Below are positions 290 to 23,814 of a stretch of 64,000 nucleotides of DNA, piece by piece. The stretch covers positions 1 to 64,000 of the forward strand of contig JANXTF010000031.1 in assembly GCA_025352565.1 (NCBI GenBank). Reading direction: 5' to 3'. The stretch comes from Rhodospirillales bacterium. Its GTDB lineage: Bacteria; Pseudomonadota; Alphaproteobacteria; Acetobacterales; Acetobacteraceae. The position numbers were made by a program, and so were the translations under genes. Numbering within the stretch: position 1 is the first letter of the stretch; each line of letters opens with the position of its first letter. The notes under the pieces were generated by a model, which saw only the letters and a list, made by a program, of their open reading frames with translations, was not told where the DNA came from and made no database searches.

Positions 290-307
290 GTGAATAATCC
301 GGGCTAG
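290..307. mobile_element. candidate terminal end of the degraded IS1380-type element
   Basis: GTGAATAATCCGGGCTAG lies about 150 bp after the transposase remnant's stop and resembles the terminal inverted repeats of IS1380-type elements. Its CTAG overlaps the stop codon of the minus-strand oxidoreductase gene (304-306), so the element would abut that gene. The other end is outside the window. Between 139 and 289 there is only a small hairpin, ACCGCC/GGCGGT at 213-231, and no gene. Confidence 0.35.
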
Positions 308-2040: not shown

Positions 2041-2404
2041 TGTTGATCCAATCTTGACGCTTGCGGGCAAACCAGCGGTAGCCTACGCGCCATCCTGCCA
2101 GGCGACGATTGCGGTGGGCGGCCGTATTGCCTCACCCAGAAATGCTCCCGAGCCGCGGTCGGAGTGCCTCACCGAATGCTCCCATAGCATCATAGCGGCG
2201 GCGCGCCATCAGCGTGCTGTGGCCTTGCCTGAGAATGCGTTCAGTTCGTGTGTTTCAGTCACGCTTATGCCCACGGGGTGGTGGCAGCCAGCGCATCCGG
2301 GTCGAGATCGGCGATCGCCTGCGGCGCCGCGGCTGTCGCGCTGCCGTGCAAGCCCACCCCCGCTGGGCGTTTGGCATTCCGGGGGGGGGGGGCGCCAGAA
2401 ACGC
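2041..2404. other. intergenic region upstream of the oxidoreductase, with a 12-G tract
   Basis: No gene was recognised. The region should hold the promoter of the minus-strand oxidoreductase gene and the 3' flank of the formylglycine-generating enzyme gene. A homopolymer of 12 G lies at 2381-2392, only 13 bp past the end of the latter gene. No clear intrinsic terminator was seen. Confidence 0.6.
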
Positions 2405-3421: not shown

Positions 3422-3509
3422 GAGCGATCTCCTCCCTTACTCAAGAACATCGACAACGGCGGGTGCGGGCGCCGCGCCTTCCGCCGAAGACGATCGCCGT
3501 CATCCAGCT

Positions 3510-5039: not shown

Positions 5040-5050
5040 GGTGTCTCTCG

Positions 5051-6013
5051 TCACTTTACTTGTGCGCCGGCGGCGGAAACGACCGCCGCCCATTTTGTGG
5101 TTTCAGCGTCGATCAGCGCCGCGTATTCGGCGGGGCTGCCGAAGACGATGTCGGCGCCTTGACCCGAGAGGGCGCGCGCCACTTCAGGATCCTTCAGCGC
5201 CTTCGCGACCTCGGCGTTCAGCCGCGCGATGATGGGTTCGGGCGTGCCCAACGGGGCCGCCAGGCCGTTCCACGACGAAACGTCGAAGCCAGGCAGGCCC
5301 GACTCAGACATGGTCGGGATCTCGGGCAGCAATGGCGACCGCCTGCTGTTGGTCACGGCGATGGCCTTGAGCTGGCCGCTTTGAATCTGCGCGATGGTCG
5401 GCGGGATATTGGGAATGACGAAGTCCACGCGGGCGGCCATCACGTCGGTCAGGGCCTGGCCGAAGTTGCGATAGGGGACATGCTCCATGTCGACCTTTGC
5501 CATCGTCTTGATGAGCTCGCCGGCCAGGTGCGACGTCGTGCCGTTGCCACCGCTGGCGAATTTCAACTTACGCGTCCGCGCCTGGTCGATGAGATTCCCG
5601 AGCGAGGATATGTTCGACGACGGGGGAACGACGAGCACGTTGCTGACCGACGTCAGTTGCGAGATCAGGGCCACGCCCTTCGCGGGATCGAAGGACAGGT
5701 TCGGATACAGCGACTTGCCGATGGCGTTGGCGACGCTGTTGAGCAGAAGGGTGTAGCCATCCGGCGCCGCGCGCATGACAGCTTCGGTTCCGATGTTGCC
5801 GCCTGCGCCGGGCCGATTGTCGATGACGATGGGCTGTCCCATATCCGCCGACATCTTCTGCCCGACCACCCGCGCGACGATGTCGGGAAAAGCGCCGGCC
5901 GCGAAAGGGACGACGATTCGGATCGGCCGGGCGGGATAGCTCTGGGCGGCGGCCCCCTGCGCAAAGACCGCCCCCAAAAGCAGCACAAGCACACGGATCG
6001 CAAGGTTTTTCAT
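5051..6013 (-). CDS. Bug/TctC-family periplasmic solute receptor (second copy)
   Basis: Tripartite tricarboxylate transporter receptor, about 320 residues. A signal peptide (MKNLAIRVLVLLLGAVFAQG, cut near AAAQ) is followed by the family hallmark SYPARPIRIVVPFAAG, NRPGAGGNIGTEAV, the DGYTLL block and HVPYRNFGQALTDVMAARVDF. These receptors bind carboxylated solutes in the periplasm and hand them to TctAB. ATG 6013 has AAGGA upstream. It lies 164 bp after tctA and just before the sulfatase. The first receptor of the operon, at 8141-9109, is clearly different in sequence, so the two probably bind different ligands. Confidence 0.9.
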   Translation of the reverse strand: MKNLAIRVLVLLLGAVFAQGAAAQSYPARPIRIVVPFAAGAFPDIVARVVGQKMSADMGQPIVIDNRPGAGGNIGTEAVMRAAPDGYTLLLNSVANAIGKSLYPNLSFDPAKGVALISQLTSVSNVLVVPPSSNISSLGNLIDQARTRKLKFASGGNGTTSHLAGELIKTMAKVDMEHVPYRNFGQALTDVMAARVDFVIPNIPPTIAQIQSGQLKAIAVTNSRRSPLLPEIPTMSESGLPGFDVSSWNGLAAPLGTPEPIIARLNAEVAKALKDPEVARALSGQGADIVFGSPAEYAALIDAETTKWAAVVSAAGAQVK

Positions 6014-6177
6014 TTGGCATCCTTAGGCGGAAAGAGTGAATCCGCAGGCTCCGGAGCAGACATGCGAGCAAATCGGCGCCTGCGAGCGCGCGTTGCGCCT
6101 GTGACGACAGCGACCCGGCAGGGGCATTCGGCGCATCATCTCCGGATCGGGACCGCCATGCCTCCAGCAGCGCATGG

Positions 6178-7677
6178 CTAGGCCATTCCGCGGCGAAGAC
6201 CATCCGGCCGCTTTCTGAGAGACAGGACGATCTGCGCGACGACGATGAGCGCCGTCAGGCCAAGCAGCGAGGCGCTGATGGGTTCAAGGATGAACGTTTT
6301 GAGACTGCCGCCGCTGATCAGCATCGCCCGCCGAAAATATTCCTCCAGCATCGGGCCAAGGATGAATCCAAGCATCAGCGGCGCCGGGTCCAACTCCAAC
6401 CGCATCATGACATAGCCGATCAGACCGAAGGAGGCGGTGATCATGATGTCGTTCAGGTTGTTGTTCACGCTGAACGTTCCGACGCAGCAGAAGAACAGGA
6501 TGGACGGGAACAGGACGTTGTAGGGAACCTTGAACACCGACAGCCAGAACCTGACCAGCGGCACATTCAGGATCAACAGGAAGCAGTTGCCGATCCACAT
6601 GCTGGCGACCAGGCCCCAAAACAGGTCTGGATGGTTTGCGATCATATTCGGGCCAGGCTGCACACCCTTCAGGATGAAGGCCGCCATCATCAGCGCCATC
6701 ACAGGGTTTTCGGGAATGCCGATGCTCATCAGCGGGATGAAGCTGGTGCGGGCCGCCGCCTCGTCCGCCGCAGCCTGCCCGGCGACTCCTTCGATCGCTC
6801 CCGCCCCAATCTCGTCACGGAATTTGCTGAACTTCTTCTCGATTCCGTAGGCGGCAAACTGCGCGATCACCGGGCCGCCGCCCGGAATGATGCCCAGCAG
6901 GGAACCGACGACGCTGCCTCGAAGCGCGCTGGGGATGATGCGTTTAAACTCCGGCCAGGTCGGGATGAGGTTGATACGGCCATTGAACGGTGTGCGCTCA
7001 TCCTTGGCATCGAGATTCTTGGTGATTTCAGCGATGCCGAAACAGCCGAGCGCCACGCTTACCAGGCTTACCCCGTCCGCCAGGGCCGGCAGGCCGAAGG
7101 TGAAGCGCTCCAGGCCTGTCTCCACGTCTGTGCCTATCTGGCCGAGCAAGACGCCCACCAGGCACATGGAAAAGCCGTTCAGCAGGCTGCCCGTGGTGAC
7201 GAAGCTGACGCAGAGAAAGCCGAACAGCATCAGCGCACAGTAATCCGCTGGCCCGAACAGCAAGGCGACGTGGCCAAGGAGCGGCGCGAGCCAGGCGAGC
7301 ACCACGATCGCGACCGTTCCGCCGATGAAGCTGGATACGCCGGCCGTGAACAGGGCAAGCCCGGTCTTGCCCTTCAGCGTCATCTGGTAGCCGTCGATAC
7401 AGGCCACGATGCTGCTTGCATGCGGAATTCTCATGGTGATCGCACTGACGCTGTCGCCGTACTGCGCCCCGTAATAGATGCCCGCCAGCATGATCAGCGC
7501 GCCCGTCGCCGGAATGGAGTAGGTGAGCGGCAGGAGCAGGCTGATCGTCGCCAGCGGCCCAAGGCCGGGGAGCAGGCCCACGAGCGTGCCGACCACGCAC
7601 CCGACGGCGCAGTAGAGTAGGTTCTCCACGGTGAGCGCGTGACCGAAGCCGAAGGCGAGATTGTGGAGCACGTCCAT
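6178..7677 (-). CDS. tctA: TctA-type large membrane subunit of a tripartite tricarboxylate transporter
   Basis: Integral membrane permease of about 499 residues with many hydrophobic segments. Family hallmarks are GTLVGLLPGLGPLATISLLLP near the N-terminus, YYGAQYGDSVSAI, and the matching second half with GIIPGGGPVIAQFAAYGIEK and SIGIPENPVMALMMAAFILKG. ATG 7677 overlaps the tctB stop as TGATG, so translation is probably coupled. The longer open frame reaching 8409 covers tctB and is not used. It works with TctB and the two Bug receptors around it to import a carboxylate, here perhaps a sugar acid, using the ion gradient. Confidence 0.93.
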   Translation of the reverse strand: MDVLHNLAFGFGHALTVENLLYCAVGCVVGTLVGLLPGLGPLATISLLLPLTYSIPATGALIMLAGIYYGAQYGDSVSAITMRIPHASSIVACIDGYQMTLKGKTGLALFTAGVSSFIGGTVAIVVLAWLAPLLGHVALLFGPADYCALMLFGFLCVSFVTTGSLLNGFSMCLVGVLLGQIGTDVETGLERFTFGLPALADGVSLVSVALGCFGIAEITKNLDAKDERTPFNGRINLIPTWPEFKRIIPSALRGSVVGSLLGIIPGGGPVIAQFAAYGIEKKFSKFRDEIGAGAIEGVAGQAAADEAAARTSFIPLMSIGIPENPVMALMMAAFILKGVQPGPNMIANHPDLFWGLVASMWIGNCFLLILNVPLVRFWLSVFKVPYNVLFPSILFFCCVGTFSVNNNLNDIMITASFGLIGYVMMRLELDPAPLMLGFILGPMLEEYFRRAMLISGGSLKTFILEPISASLLGLTALIVVAQIVLSLRKRPDGLRRGMA

Positions 7678-8111
7678 CAGAACAGCCCCAGATTCAGCCC
7701 GAGGAATCGCTCGAGAGCCAAGGCCACGACGATGAGTCCGGCCGTGATCTGCAGACTGCGTTTCCAGTTGAAGCTGGGCGCGGCGAAGCCGGCCACGAAG
7801 ACCAGGACCAGGATCGCCAGCGCTGCGTCGACGAGTTGCGCCGCCAGGACGAAGCCGGCCAGACTCAGCATGATCAGGGTAATGTTCTTGAGATTGACGT
7901 AGAGCTGCTCCGACGTCTCGTAGCGCGAGCGGACGAGCATGGCGACGGCGACCAGCAGGAGCAGGCCGCTGATCAGCAACGGGAACAGCCCGGGCCCGGC
8001 ATGCGAGAGATTCCCGATCGGATAGCGCGCCGCCTTCGCTCCGAAAAACAGCGCGACCGCCGCGAGGAACAGGCCGCGTGCAATATTTCTCTTGGGCATC
8101 GTCCGAATCAT
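7677..8111 (-). CDS. tctB: TctB-type small membrane subunit of a tripartite tricarboxylate transporter
   Basis: A small four-helix membrane protein of about 144 residues with hydrophobic segments near residues 10-30, 45-65, 80-100 and 105-140, as in the TctB family. The helix-loop AARYPIGNLSHAGPGLFPLLIS is typical (the x-G-P-G-x-F-P motif). Start ATG 8111 is chosen because AAGGA lies about 11 nt upstream; ATG 8099 is also possible. It sits between a Bug receptor gene and tctA, with a 1-nt overlap to tctA. Confidence 0.88.
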   Translation of the reverse strand: MIRTMPKRNIARGLFLAAVALFFGAKAARYPIGNLSHAGPGLFPLLISGLLLLVAVAMLVRSRYETSEQLYVNLKNITLIMLSLAGFVLAAQLVDAALAILVLVFVAGFAAPSFNWKRSLQITAGLIVVALALERFLGLNLGLF

Positions 8112-8140
8112 CGGGGCAGCTGTCCTTGTCGAATGAGAAC

Positions 8141-9109
8141 TCAGAGCTTGAGCCCCAGGAGGGCGATGATCGGGCCCCATCGTTCACGCTCGGCGGCAAT
8201 GAACGCCGCAAACGCGTCGGCATCCCGGTATACGGGAACGATCGAGGCGACGTCGAAGCGGTGTCGCAGGTCCGGATTGTCCAGCGCCTGCTTGAGGCCG
8301 GCTCCCAGTTTCGCAAGAACGTCCGGCGGGGTGCGGGCGGGTGCGAACATGCCCTGCCAGCCTTCGACCACGATGTCGCCGTAGCCGGCCTCGCCGATCG
8401 TGGGAACATCGGGCAGGTTTGGCGCCCGTGTCGTCGCCATGGTCGCGAGCGCGCGCAGCGTGCCTGCCTTCACATAGGGCGCCACGGCCGATTCGGCATC
8501 GATGGCAAAATCGAGCCGGGCGGCCAGCACATCGGTAATCATCGGCGCGGACCCGCGGTAGGGAACATGCGTCATCACCGCCCCGGACGCGGCTTTGAAC
8601 AGCTCGGTCCCCAAATGCTGCACGGAACCGTTGCCGGACGAACCATAGGTCCCCGGCCTCTGGCGGGTCATGGCGGCGAAGGCAGGCAAGTCCTTCGCGG
8701 CGCTCTGAGTTGAAACCACGGCGATGAACCGGACCGTCGCCGCCTGGCCGATGGGGACGAAGTCACGCGCCGGGTCGAACGCCAGGTTGGGGAAAAGGAA
8801 AGAATTCATGACGAGTTGCGGGCTGTTGCCCAGCATCAGCGTGTAGCCGTCCGGCACTGCTCTCACGACCTCGCTCGATGCGATGTTGCCGCTGGCGCCG
8901 GTGCGGTTATCGACGATCATGGTTTGCCCCAGCCCGCGCCCCATCTCCTCAGCGACGGCACGCGCGACCAGATCGACGGCACCTCCGGGCGCGAACCCCA
9001 CCACGAGCCGCATCGGCCGGCTTGGGTAGGAATCGGCTGTGGCTGCCCTCAGCGTCGCCGGAAGCAACAGACCTGCCGCGAGCACGGTGCGGCGGCTGAC
9101 GCGCGTCAT
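8141..9109 (-). CDS. Bug/TctC-family periplasmic solute receptor with a Tat-like signal
   Basis: Receptor of about 322 residues. The N-terminus MTRVSRRTVLAAGLLLPATL carries a twin-arginine-like SRRTVL motif before a hydrophobic stretch, suggesting Tat export. It is followed by SYPSRPMRLVVGFAPGGAVD, NRTGASGNIASSEVVRAVP, DGYTLMLG and THVPYRGSAPMITDVLAARLDF, all typical of Bug proteins. Start 9109 is taken from this signal; the longer frame to 9256 lacks one. It is the first transporter gene after the dehydrogenase gene and is followed directly by tctB-tctA, making it the most likely cognate receptor. Confidence 0.9.
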   Translation of the reverse strand: MTRVSRRTVLAAGLLLPATLRAATADSYPSRPMRLVVGFAPGGAVDLVARAVAEEMGRGLGQTMIVDNRTGASGNIASSEVVRAVPDGYTLMLGNSPQLVMNSFLFPNLAFDPARDFVPIGQAATVRFIAVVSTQSAAKDLPAFAAMTRQRPGTYGSSGNGSVQHLGTELFKAASGAVMTHVPYRGSAPMITDVLAARLDFAIDAESAVAPYVKAGTLRALATMATTRAPNLPDVPTIGEAGYGDIVVEGWQGMFAPARTPPDVLAKLGAGLKQALDNPDLRHRFDVASIVPVYRDADAFAAFIAAERERWGPIIALLGLKL

Positions 9110-9224
9110 GTCCGGCGACCACGAAAAAAGGTCGTCATCACGGCAGCTCCCCTGCCGATGACGCTGCGCCGCGCAAACCCGCTCTTCGACATGTCGTTCC
9201 GTTCTCCGCACGACTATTGACGCG

Positions 9225-10112
9225 TCACTCTGGCGGCGACGTCCCGTTGATCGCATGGTAGCTGCGGATAACTTGGCTGTCGTCGACCGCCCCGTCGCCC
9301 CGCCCGGATGTGGCGAGGAACAACTGATGCGCGACGGCCGCGAGCGGCAGCGCCACCCTCATCTCGCGCCCCGCCTCCAGCACGATGCCGAGATCCTTCA
9401 CGAAAATGTCCACCGCGCTGGTGATCTCCGGCTCCGTCTCCAGCATCCGCGGACCGCGGTCGTTCAGCATCCAGCTTGCGGCCGACGATCCGCGCAGCAC
9501 GTCGAGCATCACATTCGCATCGACCCCGACCTTGGCGGCCAACGACAAGGCCTCCGCGGCGACCGCGAGATGAACGCCGCACAGCAGTTGATTCACGGTC
9601 TTGACGGTCGCGCCCTGTCCGGGCTGTTCGCCGACGTGGAATATCTTGGTGCCGAGCGCCTCCAGCACCGGCTTCACGGCCGCGAAGGTCGCGCGGTCGC
9701 CGGCCGCCATGATCGTGAGGCTGGCAGTCGTGGCACCGGCAACGCCGCCGGAGACCGGCGAGTCGAGAAACCGCCGGCCGGAGGCCATTACGCGCTGCGC
9801 CAGAGCCTTCACCGCGCCGGGCGGGCAGGTGGCCGAAAGGATGACGACCGCGCCGGGCGGCAGCGCGTCCAGCCCGCCTTCGGCGAACAATACCTGCTCG
9901 GCCTGATCGATGTTCACCACCATCAGGATCAACGCGTCGGCACCCTGCGCCGCCTCGGCGACCGTGGCGGCGGCCACGCCCCCTGCGGCGGCCACGGCAG
10001 CGGCCGCGGCCGGGCGAATGTCGTAGCCGCGCACCGCAAAGCCGCGCCCGGCCAGGTTGCGTGCCATCGGCGCCCCCATGGCGCCGAGGCCGGCGAAGCC
10101 GATCGTCCTCAT
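9225..10112 (-). CDS. L-threonate dehydrogenase-like enzyme (beta-hydroxyacid dehydrogenase family)
   Basis: NAD-dependent oxidation of a 2/3-hydroxy sugar acid is expected. The 295-residue protein has the N-terminal Rossmann motif GFAGLGAMGAPMARNL, the substrate-binding block LDSPVSGGVAGATTASLTIM, the catalytic-lysine region GATVKTVNQLLCGVHLA and the C-terminal HSAVDIFVKDLG-like block (here TSAVDIFVKDLGI). This pattern, and the ending LPLAAVAHQLF...DDSQVI, is closer to LtnD/L-threonate dehydrogenase than to 3-hydroxyisobutyrate or tartronate dehydrogenases. ATG 10112 overlaps the upstream transketolase stop by ATGA. A substrate related to a C4 or branched C5 sugar acid fits the neighbouring lactonase. 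Confidence 0.82.
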   Translation of the reverse strand: MRTIGFAGLGAMGAPMARNLAGRGFAVRGYDIRPAAAAAVAAAGGVAAATVAEAAQGADALILMVVNIDQAEQVLFAEGGLDALPPGAVVILSATCPPGAVKALAQRVMASGRRFLDSPVSGGVAGATTASLTIMAAGDRATFAAVKPVLEALGTKIFHVGEQPGQGATVKTVNQLLCGVHLAVAAEALSLAAKVGVDANVMLDVLRGSSAASWMLNDRGPRMLETEPEITSAVDIFVKDLGIVLEAGREMRVALPLAAVAHQLFLATSGRGDGAVDDSQVIRSYHAINGTSPPE

Positions 10113-11140
10113 GCTGCGAGCCATCGCTGGATGCTGGCCGTCATCGCCGCGGTGGAGATGCCGTAGCGGTCGTGCAAGGTCGGCAGCGCGCCGGCATCGA
10201 GGAACTCGTCGGGCAACGCCACCTGCCGGAAGGCCGGGGTAACCCCCGCGCGCATCAGCGTCGCCGCGACGGCCTCGCCGAGCCCGCCGATGCGGCTGTG
10301 GTTTTCGGCCACGACCACCAGCCGGCCGGGCTTGGCAGCGGCACGGATGATGGTGTCCTCATCGAGCGGCTTGATGGTCGACACGTGCAGCACGCCGGCA
10401 TCCACGTGGTCCGCCCTCAGCTGGTCCGCCGTCTCCAACGCGCGCATCGTCATCAGGCCCGACGAGACGATCAGCACGTCGTTGCCGTCGCGTAGAAGCT
10501 TCGCCTTGCCGAGTTCGAACTGGTAGCCATACCCGTCCAGCACCAGCGGCACATTGCCCCGCAGCAGGCGCATATAGACCGGCCCCTGATGCGCCGCGAT
10601 GGCCGGCACCGCCTGTTCGATCTCGAGCGCGTCGCAAGGGTCGATGATGGTCAGGTTCGGCATGCCGCGGAAGATCGCGATATCTTCCGTCGCCTGATGG
10701 CTCGGGCCGTAGCCGGTGGTCAGGCCCGGCAGCGCGCAAACCACCTTGACGTTCAGGTTCGCCTCCGCAATGGCGAGGCAGATGAAGTCATACGCGCGGC
10801 GCGCCGCGAACACGGCATAGGTGGTGGCGAACGGCATGAAGCCCTCCTGCGCCATGCCCGCCGCCGCGCACATCAGCAACTGCTCCGACATGCCCATCTG
10901 GTAGAAGCGGTCCGGATGCGCCTTCGCAAAAATGTGCAGGTCGGTATATTTGCCGAGGTCCGCCGTCAGCCCGACGATTTCGGGCCGCGTCTCCGCGAGC
11001 GCCGCCAGGGCGTGGCCAAACGGCGCCGGGCGCGTGCGCTGGTCGGGCCCGGCGAGTGAGGCGATCATCGCCGAGGTGGTGAGCCGCTGGCCGCTCGGCC
11101 GACTCAGGAGACTGACGGGACGTTCGTATTTCGAGCGCAT
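10109..11140 (-). CDS. transketolase, C-terminal (pyrimidine-binding) subunit
   Basis: The 343-residue subunit holds the ThDP pyrimidine-binding and C-terminal transketolase domains. Visible features are RTRPAPFGHALAALAE, the activating-glutamate region YQMGMSEQLLMCAAAGMA, PSHQATEDIAIFRGMPNL, and the C-terminal RLVVVAENHSRIGGLGEAV. ATG 11140 overlaps the N-terminal subunit's stop (TGATG) and has GGGAGG 8 nt upstream; a GTG one codon earlier is also open. Split transketolases of this size include AptB of D-apiose catabolism (apulose-4-phosphate transketolase), which suits the apionate-lactonase-like gene in this operon. That link is an inference. Confidence 0.9.
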   Translation of the reverse strand: MRSKYERPVSLLSRPSGQRLTTSAMIASLAGPDQRTRPAPFGHALAALAETRPEIVGLTADLGKYTDLHIFAKAHPDRFYQMGMSEQLLMCAAAGMAQEGFMPFATTYAVFAARRAYDFICLAIAEANLNVKVVCALPGLTTGYGPSHQATEDIAIFRGMPNLTIIDPCDALEIEQAVPAIAAHQGPVYMRLLRGNVPLVLDGYGYQFELGKAKLLRDGNDVLIVSSGLMTMRALETADQLRADHVDAGVLHVSTIKPLDEDTIIRAAAKPGRLVVVAENHSRIGGLGEAVAATLMRAGVTPAFRQVALPDEFLDAGALPTLHDRYGISTAAMTASIQRWLAA

Positions 11141-11991
11141 CACGCGGCCCTCCCTGCTTCAAGCGCCGCGAGCGCCTTCTGCCACTCATCTGGCTCCACG
11201 CGCAGGAAGTGGTTCTGCTCACGCTGCTCCAGGAACGGCACGCCCTTCGCCATCCTGGTGTCGCAGACGATCACGCGCGGTTGTGCCACGGCGGCGATGC
11301 GCGCCGCATCGAACGCGGCGGTCAGCGCGGCGATGTCGTTGCCGTCCACCCGCTGCGCGTACCAGCCGAAGGCGGTGAATCGGTCGGCCAGCGCCTCCAG
11401 CCCGCCGGTCACTTCCGAGGCGGGTCCGTCAGCCTGCTGGTTGTTGACGTCCACGATCCCGATGAGGTTGTCGAGCTTCCAATGGCCGGCGCCCGACGCG
11501 GCTTCCCAGACCGCGCCCTCGCCACATTCGCCATCGGAGAACAGGCAGTAGACGAACGCGTCCGATTTCTTGCGCTTGAGGCCCAGGGCGTAGCCGACCG
11601 CCAGCGCCAGCCCATGGCCCAGCGACCCGCCACTGATCTCCATGCCCGGCGTGTAGCTTGCCATGCCCGACATCGGCAGGCGGCTGTCGTCGCAGCCGTA
11701 TGTCTCCAACTCGTTCTCGGGAATGATCCCGGCCTCAATCAGCGCGGCGTAGAGCGCAATCGCGTAGTGGCCGATCGAGAGCAGGAAACGATCGCGCCCT
11801 TCCCACTCGGGGTCCTCGGGTCGGTATCGCATGGCATGAAAATAGGCCACGGCCAACACGTCGGCCACGCCAAGTGCCTGGGCGATGTAGCCCTGGCCTT
11901 GTACTTCGCCCATCAGCAGCGCGTTGCGCCGTATGCGATACGCATGTTCCGCGAGGTTCGGTGCATTCGGTCGCACCACTTGGCTTTGCAT
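11140..11991 (-). CDS. transketolase, N-terminal (diphosphate-binding) subunit
   Basis: The 283-residue ThDP diphosphate-binding half of a two-subunit transketolase. It has RDRFLLSIGHYAIALYAAL, EISGGSLGHGLALAVGYAL, and the ThDP motif SDGECGEGAVWEAA ending near IVDVNNQQADG (the G-D-G...N-N pattern with S for the first G). It pairs with the next gene to move a two-carbon unit between sugar phosphates. Its size matches AptA and other split catabolic transketolases rather than the single-chain housekeeping Tkt of about 660 residues. It follows the short-chain dehydrogenase gene after 35 bp. Confidence 0.9.
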   Translation of the reverse strand: MQSQVVRPNAPNLAEHAYRIRRNALLMGEVQGQGYIAQALGVADVLAVAYFHAMRYRPEDPEWEGRDRFLLSIGHYAIALYAALIEAGIIPENELETYGCDDSRLPMSGMASYTPGMEISGGSLGHGLALAVGYALGLKRKKSDAFVYCLFSDGECGEGAVWEAASGAGHWKLDNLIGIVDVNNQQADGPASEVTGGLEALADRFTAFGWYAQRVDGNDIAALTAAFDAARIAAVAQPRVIVCDTRMAKGVPFLEQREQNHFLRVEPDEWQKALAALEAGRAA

Positions 11992-12026
11992 GCCGCGAAC
12001 TCCTGTTTGTCGATCCGTCGAGCGGA

Positions 12027-12776
12027 TCAGTGGATCAGCATGCCGCCATTCACGTCGATGACCGCGCCGGTGATGTAGGAGGACAGGTCGGACGCCAGGA
12101 ACAGGTAAGCCCCCGCCACATCCTCCGCATTGCCGAGCCGGCCGAGCGGGATGCCCTTGAGAATTTCGGTACGCATGTCATCGGTCAGCTTGCCGCTGGT
12201 GATGTCGGTCTGAATAAGGCCAGGTGTCACGCAGTTCACCCGGATGCCGTCAGGGCCGAACTCGCGCGCCATCGCCTTGGCAAGCCCGAGCACGCCGGCC
12301 TTCGCCGCGGAGTAGTGGGGACCGCCGAAGATGCCGCCGCCGCGTTGCGCGGACACCGACGACATGCAGACGATCGAGCCCTGCTTACGCTCGCGCATGT
12401 GCGGCACGAAAGCCTGGCTGAAGCAGAACACCCCGCGCAGGTTTACGTCCAGCACCCGCTCCCAGTTGTCCTGCGTGATTTCCATGAACTTCAGCGGCTG
12501 CGTGATGCCGGCGTTGGCGATGAGCACGTCGGCCTTGCCGAAGGCAGCCAGAACATCCCGTGCGGCGCGCTGGCAGCTGGCCAGGTCGGCGACATCACAG
12601 ACGAAACCACGATGTTGGACGCCGAGTTCGGTTGCCGCGCGATGCGCGCCCGCTTCATCGAGATCGAGGATGGCGACGGTGGCGCCGTGCCGAGCAAACA
12701 GCTTCGCGGTCGCAAGACCGATGCCGCGTGCGCTTGCGGCGCCGGAAATGACGGCAACCTTGCCTTCCAGAAGCAT
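12027..12776 (-). CDS. short-chain dehydrogenase/reductase, sugar or polyol dehydrogenase type
   Basis: Classical SDR of 249 residues. The cofactor motif is GAASARGIG, followed by ILDLDEAG (the Asp suggests NAD rather than NADP), NAG (IANAGITQP), the catalytic Ser in SSVSAQRGG, YSAAK with the catalytic Tyr and Lys, and the C-terminal YITGAVIDVNGGMLI. ATG 12776 has GAGGAA about 8 nt upstream; the longer open frame to 13223 overlaps the sulfatase and is rejected. It sits between the large sulfatase and transketolase genes. A role in oxidising the desulfated sugar to a lactone for the apionate-lactonase-like protein is plausible but inferred. Confidence 0.88.
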   Translation of the reverse strand: MLLEGKVAVISGAASARGIGLATAKLFARHGATVAILDLDEAGAHRAATELGVQHRGFVCDVADLASCQRAARDVLAAFGKADVLIANAGITQPLKFMEITQDNWERVLDVNLRGVFCFSQAFVPHMRERKQGSIVCMSSVSAQRGGGIFGGPHYSAAKAGVLGLAKAMAREFGPDGIRVNCVTPGLIQTDITSGKLTDDMRTEILKGIPLGRLGNAEDVAGAYLFLASDLSSYITGAVIDVNGGMLIH

Positions 12777-12913
12777 GGCATTTCCTCGTATGGTGTCGTT
12801 GCTCCGACGATTACCGGATCGTCGCTGAAGCGAAAAACGAGAAGATTGCACCGGTGGGTGAACCCGGCTCATGTATCGCACGACCTCGCTCCGGCCGCGG
12901 TTTCTGTCGGAAT

Positions 12914-15247
12914 CTATTGTCGTTTCAGATATACCTCGGTCGCGAGCCCTTCCTGGAGCGGCAACGTGCCATGCGTCCAGACATCCACGCGCCGGACTGT
13001 ACCGGTAAACCGAAACGGTGGCTCGTATCCGCCAAACGGTTCCCCAGGATGATATCCGCAGGTCAACATGCCGGAGAAATTGAGCATGACGGGAGCGGTG
13101 CGCGTGAGAACGGCCGTAGCGACCTCGTTCCGATCGATGTACAGGCGAACGACGCCCGGCGCGCCATGGCGGTTCGCGATATCGGGCTTTCCGGTCATCT
13201 CGAACGAGACGGTCAGCATGCACGATCCGCCGGGCAGCGGCTGATCGGACTCCAGGACGGTTTCGGCGAGGCCGAGATAGTTGTAGATGAAGCGCGGCCG
13301 GCCATTGCGAACGAGCAGCCCATAGCCCCCGAATCTGCCGCCATGCGCAAGGACCATCCCGTCGGCTTCGCCATCGGCAACGTGAAGCTCCGCGCGGATG
13401 ACGTAATTCGTGTTGACGACATTGGCGGCCGCCTCGATGAACACCGGGGCGGTATCGGGATAGTAGGTGGCGTGCCGCACCGGCTCGGTCTCGGGGCGAG
13501 CCTGCCGCCGCGGTGCCCGGCCGAGCAGAGGCAGGACATTGTAGCGTCCGGCCTCATGCCACCACATCGAGATCATGGTTCGCAGCCGCTCCGGTTGCTG
13601 ACCGGCGAGGTTGACCGCCTCTCCCGGATCTCGATCGACGTGGTAGAGTTCCCAGCCCGACTGTTCCAACCGGTCGAGATCCCGGGCCAGCAACTCTGCC
13701 GACCAGCCTCGGCCGCCTTCCGCCCAGGACGGGCTGCCGGGCCATGGGCACACGGCGCGCCAGCCATCCATATGCAGCGCCCGATGCCCGAGAATCTCGT
13801 AATACTGGATTCTGTGCGAGGAGGACGCGTGCGGATCGGCGAGCTGAGCGGCGAAACTGGTGCCCTCCAGCGGCGCCTGTGCGATGCCGGCGATGCTCTG
13901 GGCAGGCGCGATCCCGAGCAGGTCGAGAATCGTCGGCATCACGTCGATGACGTGGACGAAGCCGTGCCGATTGCCGTGCTGAGAGGCGAAGTGCCTGGGC
14001 CAGGAGACGACGAACGGAACAGCGCACCCGCCGCGATAGGTCTCCCGCTTCCAGCGCCGGAACGGCGTGTTGCCCGACCAGGCCCAGCCCCAGGCAAAAT
14101 GGTTGTAGGCCTCGCGACTGCCGATCCGATCGAGCTCGTCGAGGCTGGCGGACCGCTGATCCAACTGCCCATGGCCCTGGAATTGCTGATTGTTGTAGGC
14201 GCCGTACGCCCCGCCCTCCGAACTGGCGCCGTTGTCGCTGAGCGCGACGACGATCGTGTCGTCGAGCTCGCCCATTGCCCGCAACGCGTCCAGCAACCGA
14301 CCGACCTGGTGGTCCATGTGGGCCGACATGCCCGCAAAGGCCTCCATCAGCCTCGCCGCCACTTTCTGCTGCCCGGCATCCAGCGAATCCCAGGCAGGAA
14401 CATCCGCGTCGCGCTCCGACAACGGCGAACCCCGGGGAACGAGCCCAAGTTCCTGCTGCCTTGCATGAACCACGTTGCGATACTCATCCCACCCCGTGTC
14501 GAAGCGGCCGCGATAACGGTCAATCCACTCCTTCGGGGCATGGTGCGGCGCATGGCTGGCACCGAAGGCGAGATAGAGGAAGAATGGCTTGTCGAGATCG
14601 CCCGCTCGCAGCTCTCGGACCTGGCGTATGGCGGCGTCCGCCAGATCCTCGGAGAGGTGATAGTTCGGCCCGCTGGTGTTTGGCGGGTAGACCGGGCTGT
14701 TGTCGATGACGAGGTGGGGGTCGTACTGGCTCGTCTGCCCGCCCAGAAAGCCATAGAAGCGTTCGAAGCCACGGCCGAGCGGCCAGGCATCGCGCGGAGA
14801 TGCCGGGTTCAACGCGTCGATCGGCGTCAAGTGCCACTTTCCGATACACATGGTGGCGTACCCCTCTTGAAGCAGCACTTCCGAGAGCAGGCCGTTCGAC
14901 CGCGGGATCTTGGCGTCGTGGCGTGCGATCCCGCTTGTCCATCGCGGGATCGATGGCATGTGGTTGGTATGATGGTTGCGGCCCGTGAGTAGGCATGCGC
15001 GGGTCGGCGAGCAAAGCGGGGTTGCGTGTGCATTGGTGAAGCGCATGCCGTTGTCGGCGAGGCTCTGCAGGACGGGCATGTCGATCAACCCGCCATAGGG
15101 GCTGAGATGGCCGTAGCCGATGTCGTCCATCACCCAGAAAACGATGTTCGGTCGACGCGGCCGTGGTTCCCGCGAAGTCGCCGGTGGCAATTGGAGTTCG
15201 TCGACGGTTCGCCCCAGGAATGCCGCTTCGTTCGCGTGATCCGTCAT
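12914..15247 (-). CDS. large type I sulfatase, 777 residues, with C-terminal beta-rich domain
   Basis: Sulfate-ester hydrolase. PNIVFWVMDDIGYGHLSPYGG gives the metal-binding Asp pair, and LCSPTRACLLTGRNHH (C79) is the C-S-x-T/P-R formylglycine site. IGKWHLTP, LYLAFGASHAPHHAP and ALSDNGASSEGG supply further active-site residues. Residues from about 590 to the end look like the beta-sandwich tail found in long arylsulfatases. No signal peptide is seen. The open frame extends upstream to 16078, but ATG 15247 overlaps the preceding gene's stop as ATGA, and the first recognisable sulfatase residues begin about 32 codons later, so this start is chosen. The substrate is unknown. Confidence 0.88.
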   Translation of the reverse strand: MTDHANEAAFLGRTVDELQLPPATSREPRPRRPNIVFWVMDDIGYGHLSPYGGLIDMPVLQSLADNGMRFTNAHATPLCSPTRACLLTGRNHHTNHMPSIPRWTSGIARHDAKIPRSNGLLSEVLLQEGYATMCIGKWHLTPIDALNPASPRDAWPLGRGFERFYGFLGGQTSQYDPHLVIDNSPVYPPNTSGPNYHLSEDLADAAIRQVRELRAGDLDKPFFLYLAFGASHAPHHAPKEWIDRYRGRFDTGWDEYRNVVHARQQELGLVPRGSPLSERDADVPAWDSLDAGQQKVAARLMEAFAGMSAHMDHQVGRLLDALRAMGELDDTIVVALSDNGASSEGGAYGAYNNQQFQGHGQLDQRSASLDELDRIGSREAYNHFAWGWAWSGNTPFRRWKRETYRGGCAVPFVVSWPRHFASQHGNRHGFVHVIDVMPTILDLLGIAPAQSIAGIAQAPLEGTSFAAQLADPHASSSHRIQYYEILGHRALHMDGWRAVCPWPGSPSWAEGGRGWSAELLARDLDRLEQSGWELYHVDRDPGEAVNLAGQQPERLRTMISMWWHEAGRYNVLPLLGRAPRRQARPETEPVRHATYYPDTAPVFIEAAANVVNTNYVIRAELHVADGEADGMVLAHGGRFGGYGLLVRNGRPRFIYNYLGLAETVLESDQPLPGGSCMLTVSFEMTGKPDIANRHGAPGVVRLYIDRNEVATAVLTRTAPVMLNFSGMLTCGYHPGEPFGGYEPPFRFTGTVRRVDVWTHGTLPLQEGLATEVYLKRQ

Positions 15248-17136
15248 GGTGCCATGTCTTTGCGCTTGGGTTCGTCGGCCAGCAGCGTCGTTTTGTCGGC
15301 CGGGATGTAGGACAGCACCGCATAGGCGCCCAAGCGATGGACCGAAGCATCGGTCGCGCGTCGCAGCGTGTCCCAGGGGTTCTCCGCGGACCGAAAGCTC
15401 TCCCACGTATCGGCATCCAGAACCGCGATCGTGCCGGTCTTGGTGAAATCGTGAAGTTCGACATCGACGGGGTCGGGGCCGAGATTGCACAGCAAGACCT
15501 CTCGACACCCGTCGCGGCTGAGCAGGAGGCCCGCGATGCGCCTGGGCTCGGAGATCGACAGATCCTGCAGATGTGAGAACGCGCAGACGCGTGCGAGCAC
15601 GAACCACGTCGGATAACGCAACGGAACCGGGCCGGCGCTCACCACTCCGGACTCGCCGGTGAAGCTCATCAGGGTCAGTGCCTCGACCCCGGCCTTGGCG
15701 GATTGCGCGATGTAGCCGAGGACCCAGGCCGCGCCGAACAGACCCCGGCAGCGTGGGTCCTGGCGCGCGAGCGTCACGCGGCGCGTGCCGTCGGTCTTCG
15801 GCTGGCGGCCCAGCGGGCTGTTGCGCGCCCCGATCGTGCTCGGGCCTATCCGGATCGGCTGCGGGTATTGCACCCGCAACGTCTCGACCAGCGAGGGTAG
15901 GGTTTGCAGCGTGAGCATGATTTCGCTTTCGGTCGACCCATGGACGATCGGCGATGTCGTGAACGTCAGAAAATCGCCGGTGCCGAGCCTCTCGGCGCGG
16001 TGCAACTGGACAAAGAAATGCTCGGTCCCACCGCCCACGCACGCTGTGGGGAAGCTTGCGCGGGCGGCGGCGATACAACGCGGCTCGCTGGGAAACACCG
16101 CGATGCTGTCAAGTGCGGCGTCAACCGGGTGCATTCTGGTCCGCAGCCCCTCGAGGCTGGCTTCGGCCCTGTCGACTTCAACGGCTTTCACGTCGAGCCG
16201 AAGTTTCGCGCCGGCGGAGCGGAGGAGTCCGGCAATGCCGGCCCAATCCACCGCAGCGTCGCTCTCGATGGCAAGATGCAGGTGCGAGAGGCGCATCGTC
16301 TGCAATGCGCGAAGGGCGGGGGCACCAGCGGCGGCATCTCCCACGCCGATCTCGATGCCGATGCGGGGAAGGCGACGCTGCCCGTCTGCCGCTTCCACAT
16401 AAACGGGGCCTGGCCGTCTGAGCTGGGTCAGGCCCGTCGGCCGGTCGATCCGAAGCTCCGCGCTCTGCCGGATGAGTGCGCCCGATCGGAGCCAATAGGG
16501 CCGCGGCATAAGGTTCGAGCGGTTATAGGTCTTGAAGGACGCATCGGAATTGTTGCGCTGATCCTCGAACTCGAACGTATCTCCGCCGAACGCGCAATGT
16601 GCCCACCGATCCGGGGCATATTCGTGCCGGATCGCCTGGATCAGCATGAAGGGCGGCCAAGGCGGCACCAGAGTCGGTATCGTGGAATGGCTCTCGCGCC
16701 CATCGGTGTGCCGTACCGCAACCCGCGCTCCGCCGAGCGAGGCGGGGTGCAACAGGCAGATGCCGAACCGGTTCGTCTGCACGTCCGCAACAGGGGTCGC
16801 CTGGGCCGTGAAGCAAAGACTGCCATCCGCCCTGCCTTCGATCCGTACCTCGAACGGCAAACCTTCCGGCAACGTCGGAAAGCGGCCGGCTATCCGCAGC
16901 TCGAACGTTTCGGGGCCTACCGTCGAAGCGATGTCGTCGATGATCGGCTCGGGGGTTCGCCAATCGATATCACGGTAGACGAAGGCCAGCCCGTGCCAAA
17001 CCTCCACATCGCCGACACATAGCTCCCACAGCTTGCCGTGTTGGAACCGCATCCGCAGCGGGCCGGCGCGCAGCGCGAGCGGCTCGAAGACAGGCTCCTC
17101 GGTCCCGTAAAGGATCGTCGCGAGAGAGTCTGGCAA
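15244..17136 (-). CDS. D-apionate lactonase-like protein (ApnL family)
   Basis: First gene of the operon, 630 residues. It resembles ApnL, which opens D-apionolactone to D-apionate in D-apiose catabolism. The most telling segment is FEFEDQRNNSDASFKTYNR at about 188-206, close to the EDQRNW-S/T-DASFKTY signature of that family, preceded by a Q-A-I-R-HEY block and an RIEGRADGSL segment near residue 98. The middle third looks like a TIM barrel and the last 90 residues a small beta domain. The start is TTG 17136, supported by GGAGG 6 nt upstream. It overlaps the sulfatase start by 4 nt. The exact lactone may differ from apionolactone because sulfatases follow directly. Confidence 0.75.
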   Translation of the reverse strand: MPDSLATILYGTEEPVFEPLALRAGPLRMRFQHGKLWELCVGDVEVWHGLAFVYRDIDWRTPEPIIDDIASTVGPETFELRIAGRFPTLPEGLPFEVRIEGRADGSLCFTAQATPVADVQTNRFGICLLHPASLGGARVAVRHTDGRESHSTIPTLVPPWPPFMLIQAIRHEYAPDRWAHCAFGGDTFEFEDQRNNSDASFKTYNRSNLMPRPYWLRSGALIRQSAELRIDRPTGLTQLRRPGPVYVEAADGQRRLPRIGIEIGVGDAAAGAPALRALQTMRLSHLHLAIESDAAVDWAGIAGLLRSAGAKLRLDVKAVEVDRAEASLEGLRTRMHPVDAALDSIAVFPSEPRCIAAARASFPTACVGGGTEHFFVQLHRAERLGTGDFLTFTTSPIVHGSTESEIMLTLQTLPSLVETLRVQYPQPIRIGPSTIGARNSPLGRQPKTDGTRRVTLARQDPRCRGLFGAAWVLGYIAQSAKAGVEALTLMSFTGESGVVSAGPVPLRYPTWFVLARVCAFSHLQDLSISEPRRIAGLLLSRDGCREVLLCNLGPDPVDVELHDFTKTGTIAVLDADTWESFRSAENPWDTLRRATDASVHRLGAYAVLSYIPADKTTLLADEPKRKDMAP

Positions 17137-17166
17137 TCGTGCCTCCGTCTACTCGCCCACGCCATC

Positions 17167-17202
17167 GGGATGCGGTCCGTCGAAGCAAGCGCACCGCATC
17201 CC
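17167..17202 (-). promoter_or_regulatory. 10-bp palindrome in the leader of the sulfatase/lactonase operon
   Basis: GGGATGCGGT (17167-17176) and ACCGCATCCC (17193-17202) form a perfect inverted repeat with a 16-nt loop. In the transcript it would be a stable stem-loop ending about 30 nt before the TTG start at 17136. It could be an RNA regulatory hairpin or a widely spaced operator. No U-tract follows, so it is not a normal terminator. Confidence 0.5.
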
Positions 17203-17230
17203 GCGGATATCGAAAGCCCGATGCGCCTCG

Positions 17231-17258
17231 TTTCTGAAATACGCCTGTATTTCAGAAA
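17231..17258 (-). promoter_or_regulatory. 12-bp palindromic operator candidate upstream of the sulfatase/lactonase operon
   Basis: TTTCTGAAATAC (17231-17242) and GTATTTCAGAAA (17247-17258) are perfect inverted arms around GCCT. They are AT-rich in a GC-rich genome and lie 95-122 bp upstream of the first start codon. The TGAAATAC...GTATTTCA core resembles operators of IclR- or GntR-type regulators of catabolic operons. No regulator of those families is encoded in the window. No T-tract follows, arguing against a terminator. Confidence 0.6.
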
Positions 17259-17268
17259 CTGGCACGCC

Positions 17269-17307
17269 ACCGAAAATAAACCAACGCGTGTCCCTGAAGC
17301 GGGACAC
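17269..17307 (-). terminator. intrinsic terminator at the end of the ABC/GMC operon
   Basis: Reading the minus strand, the hairpin GTGTCCC-GCTTCA-GGGACAC (17307-17288) begins inside the stop codon of the substrate-binding gene and is followed by a T-rich run, TTGGTTTATTTT. This is the clearest intrinsic terminator in the window. It separates the ABC operon from the sulfatase operon downstream. Confidence 0.7.
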
Positions 17308-18506
17308 TACGACGCGATCTCCCAGCTCGGCTTTCCGCGCGGATCATCCGGCTGCTTCTCGTCGAAGGCTTGGCGCGGTGGCTTGGACCCGTTCGCCTGC
17401 CAGGCGGCCTTGCAGACAGCGTCGCCCAGAGAGACGATCTTGCGGACATTCGCCGGGTCGAGCGCGGCCGGGAAAAGCGCCTTGGTCTGCGACAGCCCGG
17501 GCAGCGTGTTGACGTCGCTTTCGGTCATCCATCCCCAGCCGCGCCGCCGCCACAGAACATGGGCCATGTGGTCGGCCCTGTCATCGATCCCGCCCGGGAA
17601 TTCCTTGCCGTAGGTTTCGACCACCTGCTTGGCTGGCATCGTGGACAGCGCCTCGGTGGCGCGCGCATTCGCCATCAGGAATGCCTGCACGGCCTTCGGG
17701 TCGCTCTTCAGGAATTCCTGGCGCACGACCCACCAGACACGGTGCGGGTAATAAGCCTCCGGGGCGAACGGCGTCTTTGCGAACGAAGCCACCTTGTGAC
17801 CGGCGCCCTTGCCCTCTGGCCCGTCATAGGCCGCGCCCGTCGTGCCGTCGTTGCGCACCAGCGTGATCAGGTCGCCCGCCCGTTCGGCCGCCTCGGAGAT
17901 CGGCTCGATGCTGATCACCGCGTCGATCCCGCTCTGCGGGCGCGCCAGTTCCGTCAACGCGTTGATGCCGCGCAAGGTGATGTTGACGTCCTTCGGGTTG
18001 TCGGTGCCGAAATGGGCCTGGAGCATGCGCGAGAACATCAGATGAATGTCGGAGGCGACGATCGTCAGCACCGTCTTGCCGCGCAGGTCATCGAGATTCT
18101 TGATCGGCGACCCCTTGGGCACCTGCACGGGAAACAGGTTTCCGCCGCCGGCCAATGCGATGGGAACGACGGGATCGGCGCCCAACAGGGTTCGGATCAG
18201 GGGCGTGCTGCCGATCATTCCGAGCTGCAGCTGGTTTGCGGCGAGCCCCTGCAGCATCCGCAGCAGCACCGTGAAGCCGAGATACTCGCCTTCCAGAGAA
18301 ACGAGCCCGACCTCCTTTGCGGCCTGTTCCAGCAGCTTCTGCTCCTGCATGCGCAGGACGAGCGCGCCGCCTTCCTGCGTGAGGGCGGTGCCGATGGTAA
18401 GCTTGAGCGCCTGCCCGAAGGCCGGGCTGAGCCGGATGAACGGTGCCAGCGCGGCAGCCGTCGCCAGGGTGATGCTCGCGCGCCGCCCGATGCCTGATGT
18501 GTTCAT
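17307..18506 (-). CDS. ABC transporter substrate-binding protein, NMT1/SsuA-like (sulfonate, taurine or sulfate-ester type)
   Basis: Periplasmic receptor of 399 residues. The signal peptide begins MNTSGIGRRASITLATAAAL and is cut near AFGQA. Then come LKLTIGTALTQEGGALVLRM, a QLQLGMIGSTPLIRTLL block and KNLDDLRGKTVLTI, as in SsuA/TauA/NMT1-like receptors. ATG 18506 has GGGAGG 5 nt upstream. It is the last gene of an operon with two permeases and an ATPase. In a region with two sulfatases, sulfate esters or sulfonates (compare AtsR of AtsRBC) are attractive ligands, but the ligand cannot be read from sequence. Confidence 0.85.
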   Translation of the reverse strand: MNTSGIGRRASITLATAAALAPFIRLSPAFGQALKLTIGTALTQEGGALVLRMQEQKLLEQAAKEVGLVSLEGEYLGFTVLLRMLQGLAANQLQLGMIGSTPLIRTLLGADPVVPIALAGGGNLFPVQVPKGSPIKNLDDLRGKTVLTIVASDIHLMFSRMLQAHFGTDNPKDVNITLRGINALTELARPQSGIDAVISIEPISEAAERAGDLITLVRNDGTTGAAYDGPEGKGAGHKVASFAKTPFAPEAYYPHRVWWVVRQEFLKSDPKAVQAFLMANARATEALSTMPAKQVVETYGKEFPGGIDDRADHMAHVLWRRRGWGWMTESDVNTLPGLSQTKALFPAALDPANVRKIVSLGDAVCKAAWQANGSKPPRQAFDEKQPDDPRGKPSWEIAS

Positions 18507-18546
18507 ATTATCCTCCCGTTGCCACCCTTGTGGCATGTCGTTGTTC

Positions 18547-19359
18547 TTATCGGTCGATCTCTTCGACGATCGCCTTGGCCGCCTCGTCCCGGATGAGATC
18601 CCAGACCTGCGCGACCAAAGCAGCAAATTGCGGTGAGCCTCGTTGCGCCGGGCGCGGTCGGGGCAGCGGAATGTCGATCACCGCCTTGATGCGCCCTGGC
18701 CGGCGGGCGAGCACGACCACCCGGTCGGCGAGCAGGACGGCCTCGTCGATCGCGTGCGTGACGAAGATGACGGTGGGCGCGCCCGGCCGACGCGCCGCAT
18801 CGCCCCAAAGACGCAGCAGCTCGTCCTGCAGGATGGTCCTGGTCTGCTGGTCCACCGCCGCCAGCGGCTCGTCCATCAGCCAGATCTCCGGGTCGTTGGC
18901 GAGCATGCGGGCGAGGGCGCAGCGCTGCCGCATGCCGCCGGAGAGTTCGTGCGGGTAGCGGTTTTCGAAGCCGTCCAGGCCGACCAGCCGGATCAGCTCG
19001 CGCGCACGGGCATGGCGCTGCGTGAGCGCCACGCCGCGCGCCAGCGGACCGAACTCGATATTTCCAAGCACGGTACGCCAGGGGAACAGGGCGTAGTCCT
19101 GAAACATCACGCCGCGCTCGGGTCCCGCTCCGGTGACACGCTGGCCCCTGTAGAGCACTTCGCCCGCCGATGGCTGGGTGAAACCGGCGACGAGGCTGAG
19201 CAGCGTGGACTTGCCGCAACCGGACGGCCCGACAACGGCGAGGAACTCGCCCGCCGGCACCTCGAGATCGATGCCGGCAAGCGCCTCGATCGTGTCACCG
19301 GTCCGAACCGAGACGTAGGTCTTGCGAACAGCCTGGATTTTCAGGATGGAGTCGGTCAT
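18547..19359 (-). CDS. ABC transporter ATPase, SsuB/TauB type
   Basis: The 270-residue ATPase energises the importer. Walker A GPSGCGKST, Q-loop MFQDYALFPW, signature LSGGMRQR, Walker B IWLMDEPLAAVD and switch His FVTHAIDEA are all present. ATG 19359 overlaps the stop of the upstream permease gene as ATGA and is preferred to ATG 19371. The sequence is closest in style to SsuB/TauB/nitrate-type ATPases. A 40-bp gap separates it from the receptor gene. Confidence 0.92.
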   Translation of the reverse strand: MTDSILKIQAVRKTYVSVRTGDTIEALAGIDLEVPAGEFLAVVGPSGCGKSTLLSLVAGFTQPSAGEVLYRGQRVTGAGPERGVMFQDYALFPWRTVLGNIEFGPLARGVALTQRHARARELIRLVGLDGFENRYPHELSGGMRQRCALARMLANDPEIWLMDEPLAAVDQQTRTILQDELLRLWGDAARRPGAPTVIFVTHAIDEAVLLADRVVVLARRPGRIKAVIDIPLPRPRPAQRGSPQFAALVAQVWDLIRDEAAKAIVEEIDR

Positions 19360-20138
19360 CGGCGGGCCCATGGCAGGAGAGTATCACGTAGGCGTCGAAG
19401 GACGGCGTCGATGAGGAAGCTCACCAAGCCGATCACCAACATCCCGAACACAAGCGCATTCACATCGCGCTTAACGTAGAGCGTCGCCACCATTAGTTGG
19501 CCGAGCCCGGCAACGCTGCGGCCGCCGCTCTCGATCTTGACGCCGAGGGCAAGCTCGGCCGCGATGATCGAGCTCCAGGCGATTGCCAGCGCGATCCGCG
19601 CCGCGGTGAAGATCGTCGGAAGCGTGCTGGGCACCACCACTGCCCGCAGGATCAGCCCCGGGCCGGCGCCAAGCGCCCGCGCGGCGCGGAGGTGATTCCG
19701 ATCGACCGCCCTGGCTGCCTGGGCCGCGTTGAGGATGAACGGGAACACGGCGGCGTAGGCGACCACGAACAGCGCCGCGTTGCCCTGGACGCCAAGCCAC
19801 AGGATGGCGAGAGGAATCCAGGCGATCGGGGCGATGGACCGCAGCGATTCCGTGACGGGACGCATGGCGAGGTTGACCCACGGGAGAAGCCCCATGGCGA
19901 TCCCGGTCGGGATGCCCACCAGGGCGCCGACCAGAAAGCCGGTGATCACCCGTTGGAGGCTGCCGGCCAGCGCCACGAGCAGCGTGCCGTCGGCCGTGAT
20001 CGCGAACCCCGACCGGATGATCCCCGATGGGAACGGCCACGATGCCTGCGCGCCCGTCAGGACGACCGCACCTTCCCAGGCCAGCAGAAGCACGGCCAGC
20101 GCGCTGACCACGAGGATCTTGCTCCGCCGCCGGCTCAT
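19356..20138 (-). CDS. ABC transporter permease, SsuC/TauC type (second)
   Basis: Inner-membrane permease of 260 residues with a short N-terminal helix (KILVVSALAVLLLAWEGAVV) and a binding-protein-dependent transport domain with about six helices. The EAA-type loop is RAARALGAGPGLILRAVVVPSTLP. ATG 20138 overlaps the first permease's stop as ATGA; the longer frame to 20651 is a shadow. It pairs with the preceding permease, probably as a heterodimer. Confidence 0.88.
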   Translation of the reverse strand: MSRRRSKILVVSALAVLLLAWEGAVVLTGAQASWPFPSGIIRSGFAITADGTLLVALAGSLQRVITGFLVGALVGIPTGIAMGLLPWVNLAMRPVTESLRSIAPIAWIPLAILWLGVQGNAALFVVAYAAVFPFILNAAQAARAVDRNHLRAARALGAGPGLILRAVVVPSTLPTIFTAARIALAIAWSSIIAAELALGVKIESGGRSVAGLGQLMVATLYVKRDVNALVFGMLVIGLVSFLIDAVLRRLRDTLLPWARR

Positions 20139-22869: not shown

Positions 22870-23814
22870 ATGCTCTCGTCGATTCCAATACTGGCTATTC
22901 GAGCTTTCGAGGCCGCTGCCCGCACGGGGTCCTTTCGCGGGGCAGCAAACGAGCTTTGTGTGTCCCCCTCGGCCATCAGCCACGCAATCCGAAAGCTGGA
23001 GGTTGCTCTCGGAACGGTTCTCTTCGAACGGGGCGTTCGGCAGGTTTATCTGACCCCGCCCGGCGAGAGCCTCAGGCGGTCCGCCGTTGCCGCGTTCCAC
23101 GAGCTTCGCCAGGGCCTCGAGCAGGTCGCCCATCGCGGCCCCCAGCTGTTGCGCGTCCATTCGGCACCAAGCTTTGCCGCCCAGTGGCTGAACCCGCGGC
23201 TGTCCCATTTCCTGGCCGAACATCCGCAGATCGACCTGCGGCTGGCAGCCGGGACTGATTACGCACGCTTTACCAATGACGACTTCGATGTCGACATCAT
23301 CTATGGGCTGCCACGCCCCGAAAATACCGAAATCGTGCCGCTTGGCGAGGAAGTCGTCACGCCGCTTTGCGGCCCGGCGCTCGCCAGCAAAATTCACAAG
23401 CCCGAGGACCTGTTTGGGCAAGTATTGATAACGTCCGAAAACAAGTTGGTCCGATGGCATGAGTGGTTCGCAGCAAATGGTCTCGCGACCCCCGTTGTGC
23501 GCGGCATGCGCTTCGACCGGTCCTTCCTTGCCATCGCAACCGCCACGGCGGGGCTTGGAGTTGCCCTTGAGTCGACCCGCCTTGCCGAACAGGAGATCGA
23601 GTCGGGTCGGCTCGTCGCGCCGCTCGCGGGCCGCTCGAAGGAAATTCGTTACGTCGGGCACCGTATCCTGATTCCAAAGGCCAGTGCACAGCAGAGCCTG
23701 GTCCGCGCTTTCGTGAGCTGGGTTCTGGCCGAGCTGCACCTGCCCGACGTCAAGATCGGCTCTCAAACGCGCGCACTCCACGTTCGCATTCAGGCCAGCG
23801 ATGTAAAAGCATAA
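22870..23814 (+). CDS. LysR-family transcriptional regulator, GcvA-like
   Basis: 314 residues. Residues 1-60 form the winged helix-turn-helix: FEAAARTGSFRGAANELCVSPSAISHAIRKLE. The rest is the LysR substrate-binding domain with RVHSAPSFAAQWLNPRLSHF and the GcvA-like ITSENKLVRWHEWF and GLGVALESTRLAE blocks. It is divergent from the GMC/ABC operon with 100 bp between starts, so control of that operon by an imported or derived metabolite is likely. It might also affect the next sulfatase operon, but nothing shows this directly. Confidence 0.9.
   Translation: MLSSIPILAIRAFEAAARTGSFRGAANELCVSPSAISHAIRKLEVALGTVLFERGVRQVYLTPPGESLRRSAVAAFHELRQGLEQVAHRGPQLLRVHSAPSFAAQWLNPRLSHFLAEHPQIDLRLAAGTDYARFTNDDFDVDIIYGLPRPENTEIVPLGEEVVTPLCGPALASKIHKPEDLFGQVLITSENKLVRWHEWFAANGLATPVVRGMRFDRSFLAIATATAGLGVALESTRLAEQEIESGRLVAPLAGRSKEIRYVGHRILIPKASAQQSLVRAFVSWVLAELHLPDVKIGSQTRALHVRIQASDVKA

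Follow-up and report, generated by a model that had tools for sequence, protein, structure and literature searches.

A perfect inverted repeat as a candidate operator ahead of a putative lactonase-sulfatase operon in a Rhodospirillales bacterium

What might two long inverted repeats do in the short leader of a catabolic gene cluster? Within the window, the whole 64-kb stretch of DNA that was analysed, a 170-bp gap runs from an ABC substrate-binding gene to position 17136, where an ApnL-like lactonase gene starts with TTG, and this gap holds both repeats, here called IR1 and IR2. The sequence-only reading had pointed out the pair, and both were found again, with edges that had been placed one or two bases off. 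On the minus strand, the order of elements is the stop of the ABC gene (17307), a terminator-like stem (17307-17288), IR1, IR2, GGAGG (17146-17142) and the TTG codon. The stem ahead of the repeats has a weak T-rich tail, and the GGAGG supports TTG as the start of the lactonase gene. The leader and its upstream neighbor contain the following features:

17307..18626, minus strand, NMT1/SsuA-type ABC substrate-binding protein, upstream gene on the same strand as the lactonase gene (profile searches)
17288..17307, minus strand, terminator-like stem of 7 bp with a 6-nt loop and a weak T-rich tail, where the upstream ABC substrate-binding gene ends
17230..17259, strand-symmetric, IR1, proposed operator, 13-4-13 inverted repeat, unique in the genome
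17166..17203, minus strand, IR2, predicted stable leader stem-loop, 14-bp arms with one mismatch and a 10-nt loop, without a U-tract
17142..17146, minus strand, Shine-Dalgarno GGAGG, 5 nt before the TTG (direct sequence reading)

When the leader was scanned for sigma-70-like promoters, no hexamer pair scored above threshold, which makes activation and repression indistinguishable by the position of IR1. A search with the Rfam 15 covariance models returned no match at E values up to 1 in positions 14000-19500, and among plasmid DNA resembling the leader, the best hit was a 40-bp match at E 0.5.

IR1 is a perfect inverted repeat, GTTTCTGAAATAC-GCCT-GTATTTCAGAAAC, as had been proposed, although its arms are 13 bp rather than 12 bp long and it spans 17230-17259 rather than 17231-17258. 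The arms (17230-17242 and 17247-17259) are 100% complementary, are separated by a 4-nt spacer, and carry TTTCTGAAA and TTTCAGAAA at a centre-to-centre distance of 19 bp. The GC content of the repeat is 37%, compared with 67% for the window, and IR1 is not an intrinsic terminator, since no T-run follows the stem on either strand. IR1 occurs only once in the 4.5-Mb genome when 26 or 20 positions are specified and as many as 3 may mismatch, with no second copy before any regulator gene; IR2 is likewise single-copy at up to 3 mismatches, and a repeat family or REP element was rejected for both. A search of the genome with TTTCNGAAA-N10-TTTCNGAAA returned nothing but IR1 when as many as 2 mismatches were allowed; with 3, three weak places appeared. 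We also considered a regulon sharing the core GAAATAC-N4-GTATTTC, which was found at 9 genomic sites compared with 4 for the reversed control, and rejected it; 6 of the other 8 core sites (each with 2 mismatches) overlap long coding-like frames, and none of the 8 has full arms. A single genomic copy, together with weaker core matches that are mostly coding, is what one would expect if IR1 served a local, dedicated regulator. The earlier suggestion that IR1 looks like a protein operator seems the most plausible reading of this candidate site, judging from its AT-rich, symmetric, non-coding sequence near a start codon and the missing U-tract. IR1 resembles the long, symmetric, AT-rich leader sites generic to TetR, MarR, GntR and IclR-type regulators, but here no cognate regulator gene adjoins the operon.

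IR2 had been described as a perfect repeat with 10-bp arms at 17167-17202. The uninterrupted part is in fact 11 bp, with 16 nt between the two copies, and the full arms (17166-17179 and 17190-17203) are 14 bp long and 93% complementary, so that perfection does not extend over their whole length. With a folding energy of -25.4 kcal/mol, the proposal that IR2 could be an RNA hairpin is a fair one, and IR2 probably lies within the transcript. The hairpin ends 19 nt upstream of the Shine-Dalgarno sequence, which lies outside it and is left free. No predicted fold had the hairpin masking the Shine-Dalgarno sequence, and the stretch that begins below IR1 and reaches into the gene folds little better than its shuffles (z = -1.2). 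As no T-run follows the stem on either strand, IR2 is not an intrinsic terminator, and the plainest reading would be a passive leader stem-loop.

Whether such repeats exceed chance depends on the stretch considered. When the 170-bp leader was shuffled 3000 times with its dinucleotides preserved, no arm of at least 11 bp with a loop of up to 16 was seen, while among 20 shuffles of the whole 64-kb window one yielded an arm of at least 13; the window itself has nine repeats with arms of at least 10, compared with 1-10 per shuffle. Two such repeats in one short leader are beyond chance, whereas either alone in 64 kb is less striking. At window positions 54550-54582 lies a further perfect inverted repeat, whose GC-rich arms are 14 bp long (CGCCCGGTGGCGCC-N5-GGCGCCACCGGGCG).

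The genes that the candidate operator would control begin a series on the minus strand, which we take to form one operon comprising lactonase, sulfatase, SDR and transketolase genes. The members and putative members are:

15244..17136, minus strand, lactonase-like protein of 630 aa, first gene (NF049900, 329 bits, cut-off 750)
12914..15274, minus strand, sulfatase in a 786-aa reading, overlapping the end of the lactonase gene (PF00884, 219 bits)
12027..12800, minus strand, SDR oxidoreductase, putative operon member (profile searches)
10109..11991, minus strand, split transketolase, N- and C-terminal subunits (profile searches)
9225..10124, minus strand, 3-hydroxyisobutyrate/L-threonate dehydrogenase-like protein, putative operon member (profile searches)

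The lactonase-like first gene is clearly related to the D-apionate lactonase ApnL (E 4e-98), but its score against the NF049900 model is far below the curated cut-off, and it is not assigned to ApnL. Unlike in the apiose/apionate pathway, sulfatases and TctC/TctA-type transport proteins are among the neighbors here, and a literature search for apionate together with transketolase and lactonase found nothing. The predicted role of the operon is in the degradation of sulfate esters and sugar acids. The larger catabolic cluster to which these genes belong (304-17136, minus strand) has the lactonase, two sulfatases, a protein with an FGE-sulfatase domain, the SDR oxidoreductase and the split transketolase, as well as the threonate-dehydrogenase-like enzyme and the TctC/TctA-type proteins.

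Relatives were searched for both the repeat and the operon. None of 299 family genomes contains IR1, even with 3 mismatches allowed, and no orthologous operon was found in family genomes, where lactonase relatives are present in 15 others at 31-38% identity. This lack of conservation, which the sequence-only reading had named as refuting its view, says little, because no orthologous operon or leader was found. In samples of the phylum and class, the best lactonase was 38% identical, and no examined locus, those of the family included, had a sulfatase or transketolase adjoining; a second genome collection gave two distant lactonase relatives (24-26%). The best sulfatase relative was 41% identical, with no lactonase in the flanks examined, and the pairing of lactonase with sulfatase was seen at none of the homologous loci checked in a sample of about 1000 genomes. 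The upstream 500 bp of 31 lactonase homologues held no comparable palindrome (one had an unrelated 9-bp repeat) and no TTTCNGAAA. One sulfatase relative (L080, G104:C124:24344-26548) carries a single in-frame TGA and has a second sulfatase copy adjoining.

In the search for a regulator, Pfam scans of selected ORFs, both from the window and from contig positions 64-84 kb, detected no IclR or GntR gene. No regulator gene adjoins the operon among the scanned ORFs, and the only regulator among those of the window is located 5.7 kb away:

22870..23814, plus strand, LysR family regulator, GcvA-like (profile searches)

The usual LysR site is T-N11-A and of odd length. The axis of IR1 falls between two bases, giving it an even length that does not match such a site. 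The contig starts at window position 1, not far below the cluster, and a regulator gene could lie just outside the sequence.

A different lead came from a literature text search for the arm sequence. The one bacterial operator that it brought up belongs to CydE, a repressor of GbsR type (MarR-fold) that acts on cytochrome bd in Alishewanella sp. WH16-1; CydE is released by sulfate, and its footprint is TATTTCAGAAATTTCTGAAAGTTCA (PMC6096048). The CydE operator is palindromic, is situated just upstream of the controlled genes, and has the same two 9-mers as IR1, TTTCAGAAA and TTTCTGAAA. In CydE's operator, however, these abut to form TTTCAGAAATTTCTGAAA, whereas IR1 has them in swapped order with 10 bp between (TTTCTGAAA-N10-TTTCAGAAA), and no gbsR or cyd gene is present at the IR1 locus. 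Exact pairs of the 9-mers at spacings of 0-22 bp were found nowhere in the genome besides IR1, and tblastn with GbsR-like proteins of the family gave no match in the window or other sampled loci of this genome. A second CydE footprint, GGGATGCGCATATGCAAAT, has GGGATGCG in common with IR2, which we judged a coincidence since the remainder is mismatched.

Among 147 relatives searched, the exact 18-mer TTTCAGAAATTTCTGAAA was found in two family genomes, directly upstream of a GbsR-like gene in each (L082, G092:C12:22074-22091; L084, G111:C103:4451-4468). At both loci, which represent two genera, this MarR_2 gene is followed by cydA (PF01654), and the site is identical to the Alishewanella footprint, which suggests that the cyd operator has been retained over long distances. 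Spaced TTTCNGAAA pairs were overall no commoner in the 147 relatives than the reversed control, and only the abutting 18-mer stands out. The motif TTTCWGAAA is also contained in the CodY box (AATTTTCWGAAAATT; Firmicutes, Synergistetes), as it is in the IR1 arms, but that box is a single 15-mer, whereas IR1 has two cores 19 bp apart. CodY is known from phyla other than that of this organism. Since the 9-mer arises in unrelated systems, the link to CydE is weak.

Taken together, we favor, with modest confidence, an explanation in which IR1 is the operator of one dedicated regulator of the operon, probably a repressor, and IR2 is a leader stem-loop that is at most passive. A single dedicated transcription factor, homodimeric or a dimer of dimers, would bind IR1 and control the lactonase-sulfatase-SDR-transketolase operon; most likely it would act as a repressor that a pathway intermediate releases from IR1. 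We assume repression here since operons of this kind are commonly arranged that way. IR2 would form the 5' leader stem-loop of the same transcript, with at most a passive part, such as protecting the mRNA 5' end.

Other explanations give the same repeats a different role. Both could be intercistronic RNA stem-loops in a GMC/ABC transcript that runs into the lactonase operon, serving mRNA processing or end stability rather than regulation. The genes on either side are on the same strand, three stem-loops follow one another in a row, the whole leader folds well (z = -6.5), IR1 as RNA reaches -15.3 kcal/mol, and the leader yielded no promoter; still, we consider this unlikely, since a perfectly symmetric AT-rich 13-bp repeat would more typically be a DNA site, and the first stem (17307-17288), being terminator-like, would part the transcripts. 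In a special case of our preferred explanation, IR1 would be a GbsR/CydE-like (MarR-type) site, with TTTCWGAAA half-sites one helical turn wider than in the cyd operator. The shared 9-mers, the identical 18-mer that two family genomes carry ahead of the gbsR-like gene and cydA, and the derepression of CydE by sulfate, a product expected of a sulfatase, are in keeping with such a site, yet the swapped order and different spacing, the occurrence of the 9-mer as CodY core, the origin of the match in a literature-wide string search and the lack of a GbsR match in the loci sampled make it quite unlikely. More doubtful than any other proposal made here is the fuller version, in which a sulfate-responsive regulator of GbsR/CydE type was recruited to the sulfatase-lactonase operon through a widened operator with half-sites about two helical turns apart.

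The two-layer control put forward by the sequence-only reading would combine the IR1 operator with an RNA switch or attenuator formed by IR2 on the same operon. Both elements exist, and IR2 is a strong hairpin close upstream of the Shine-Dalgarno sequence, but positive evidence for the second layer was not obtained: IR2 has no U-tract, no fold hiding the Shine-Dalgarno sequence and no Rfam match, and no homologues were found that could show covariation. We regard this form of control as very unlikely. That both palindromes are neutral products of chance, without function, is highly improbable in our view; the repeats were picked post hoc from 64 kb, in which arms as long as those of IR1 do arise in shuffles, and no conservation is demonstrable, but chance would have to place two repeats in one 170-bp leader when not one leader shuffle reaches even one.

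If the recruitment of a CydE-type regulator were true, it would link carbon catabolism with the release of sulfate. Should IR1 be an operator, as we favor, it would mark where control is exerted on an uncharacterised catabolic operon bringing together sulfatases, a relative of the apionate lactonase and a split transketolase, and it would offer a handle with which to fish out the regulator and hence the inducer.
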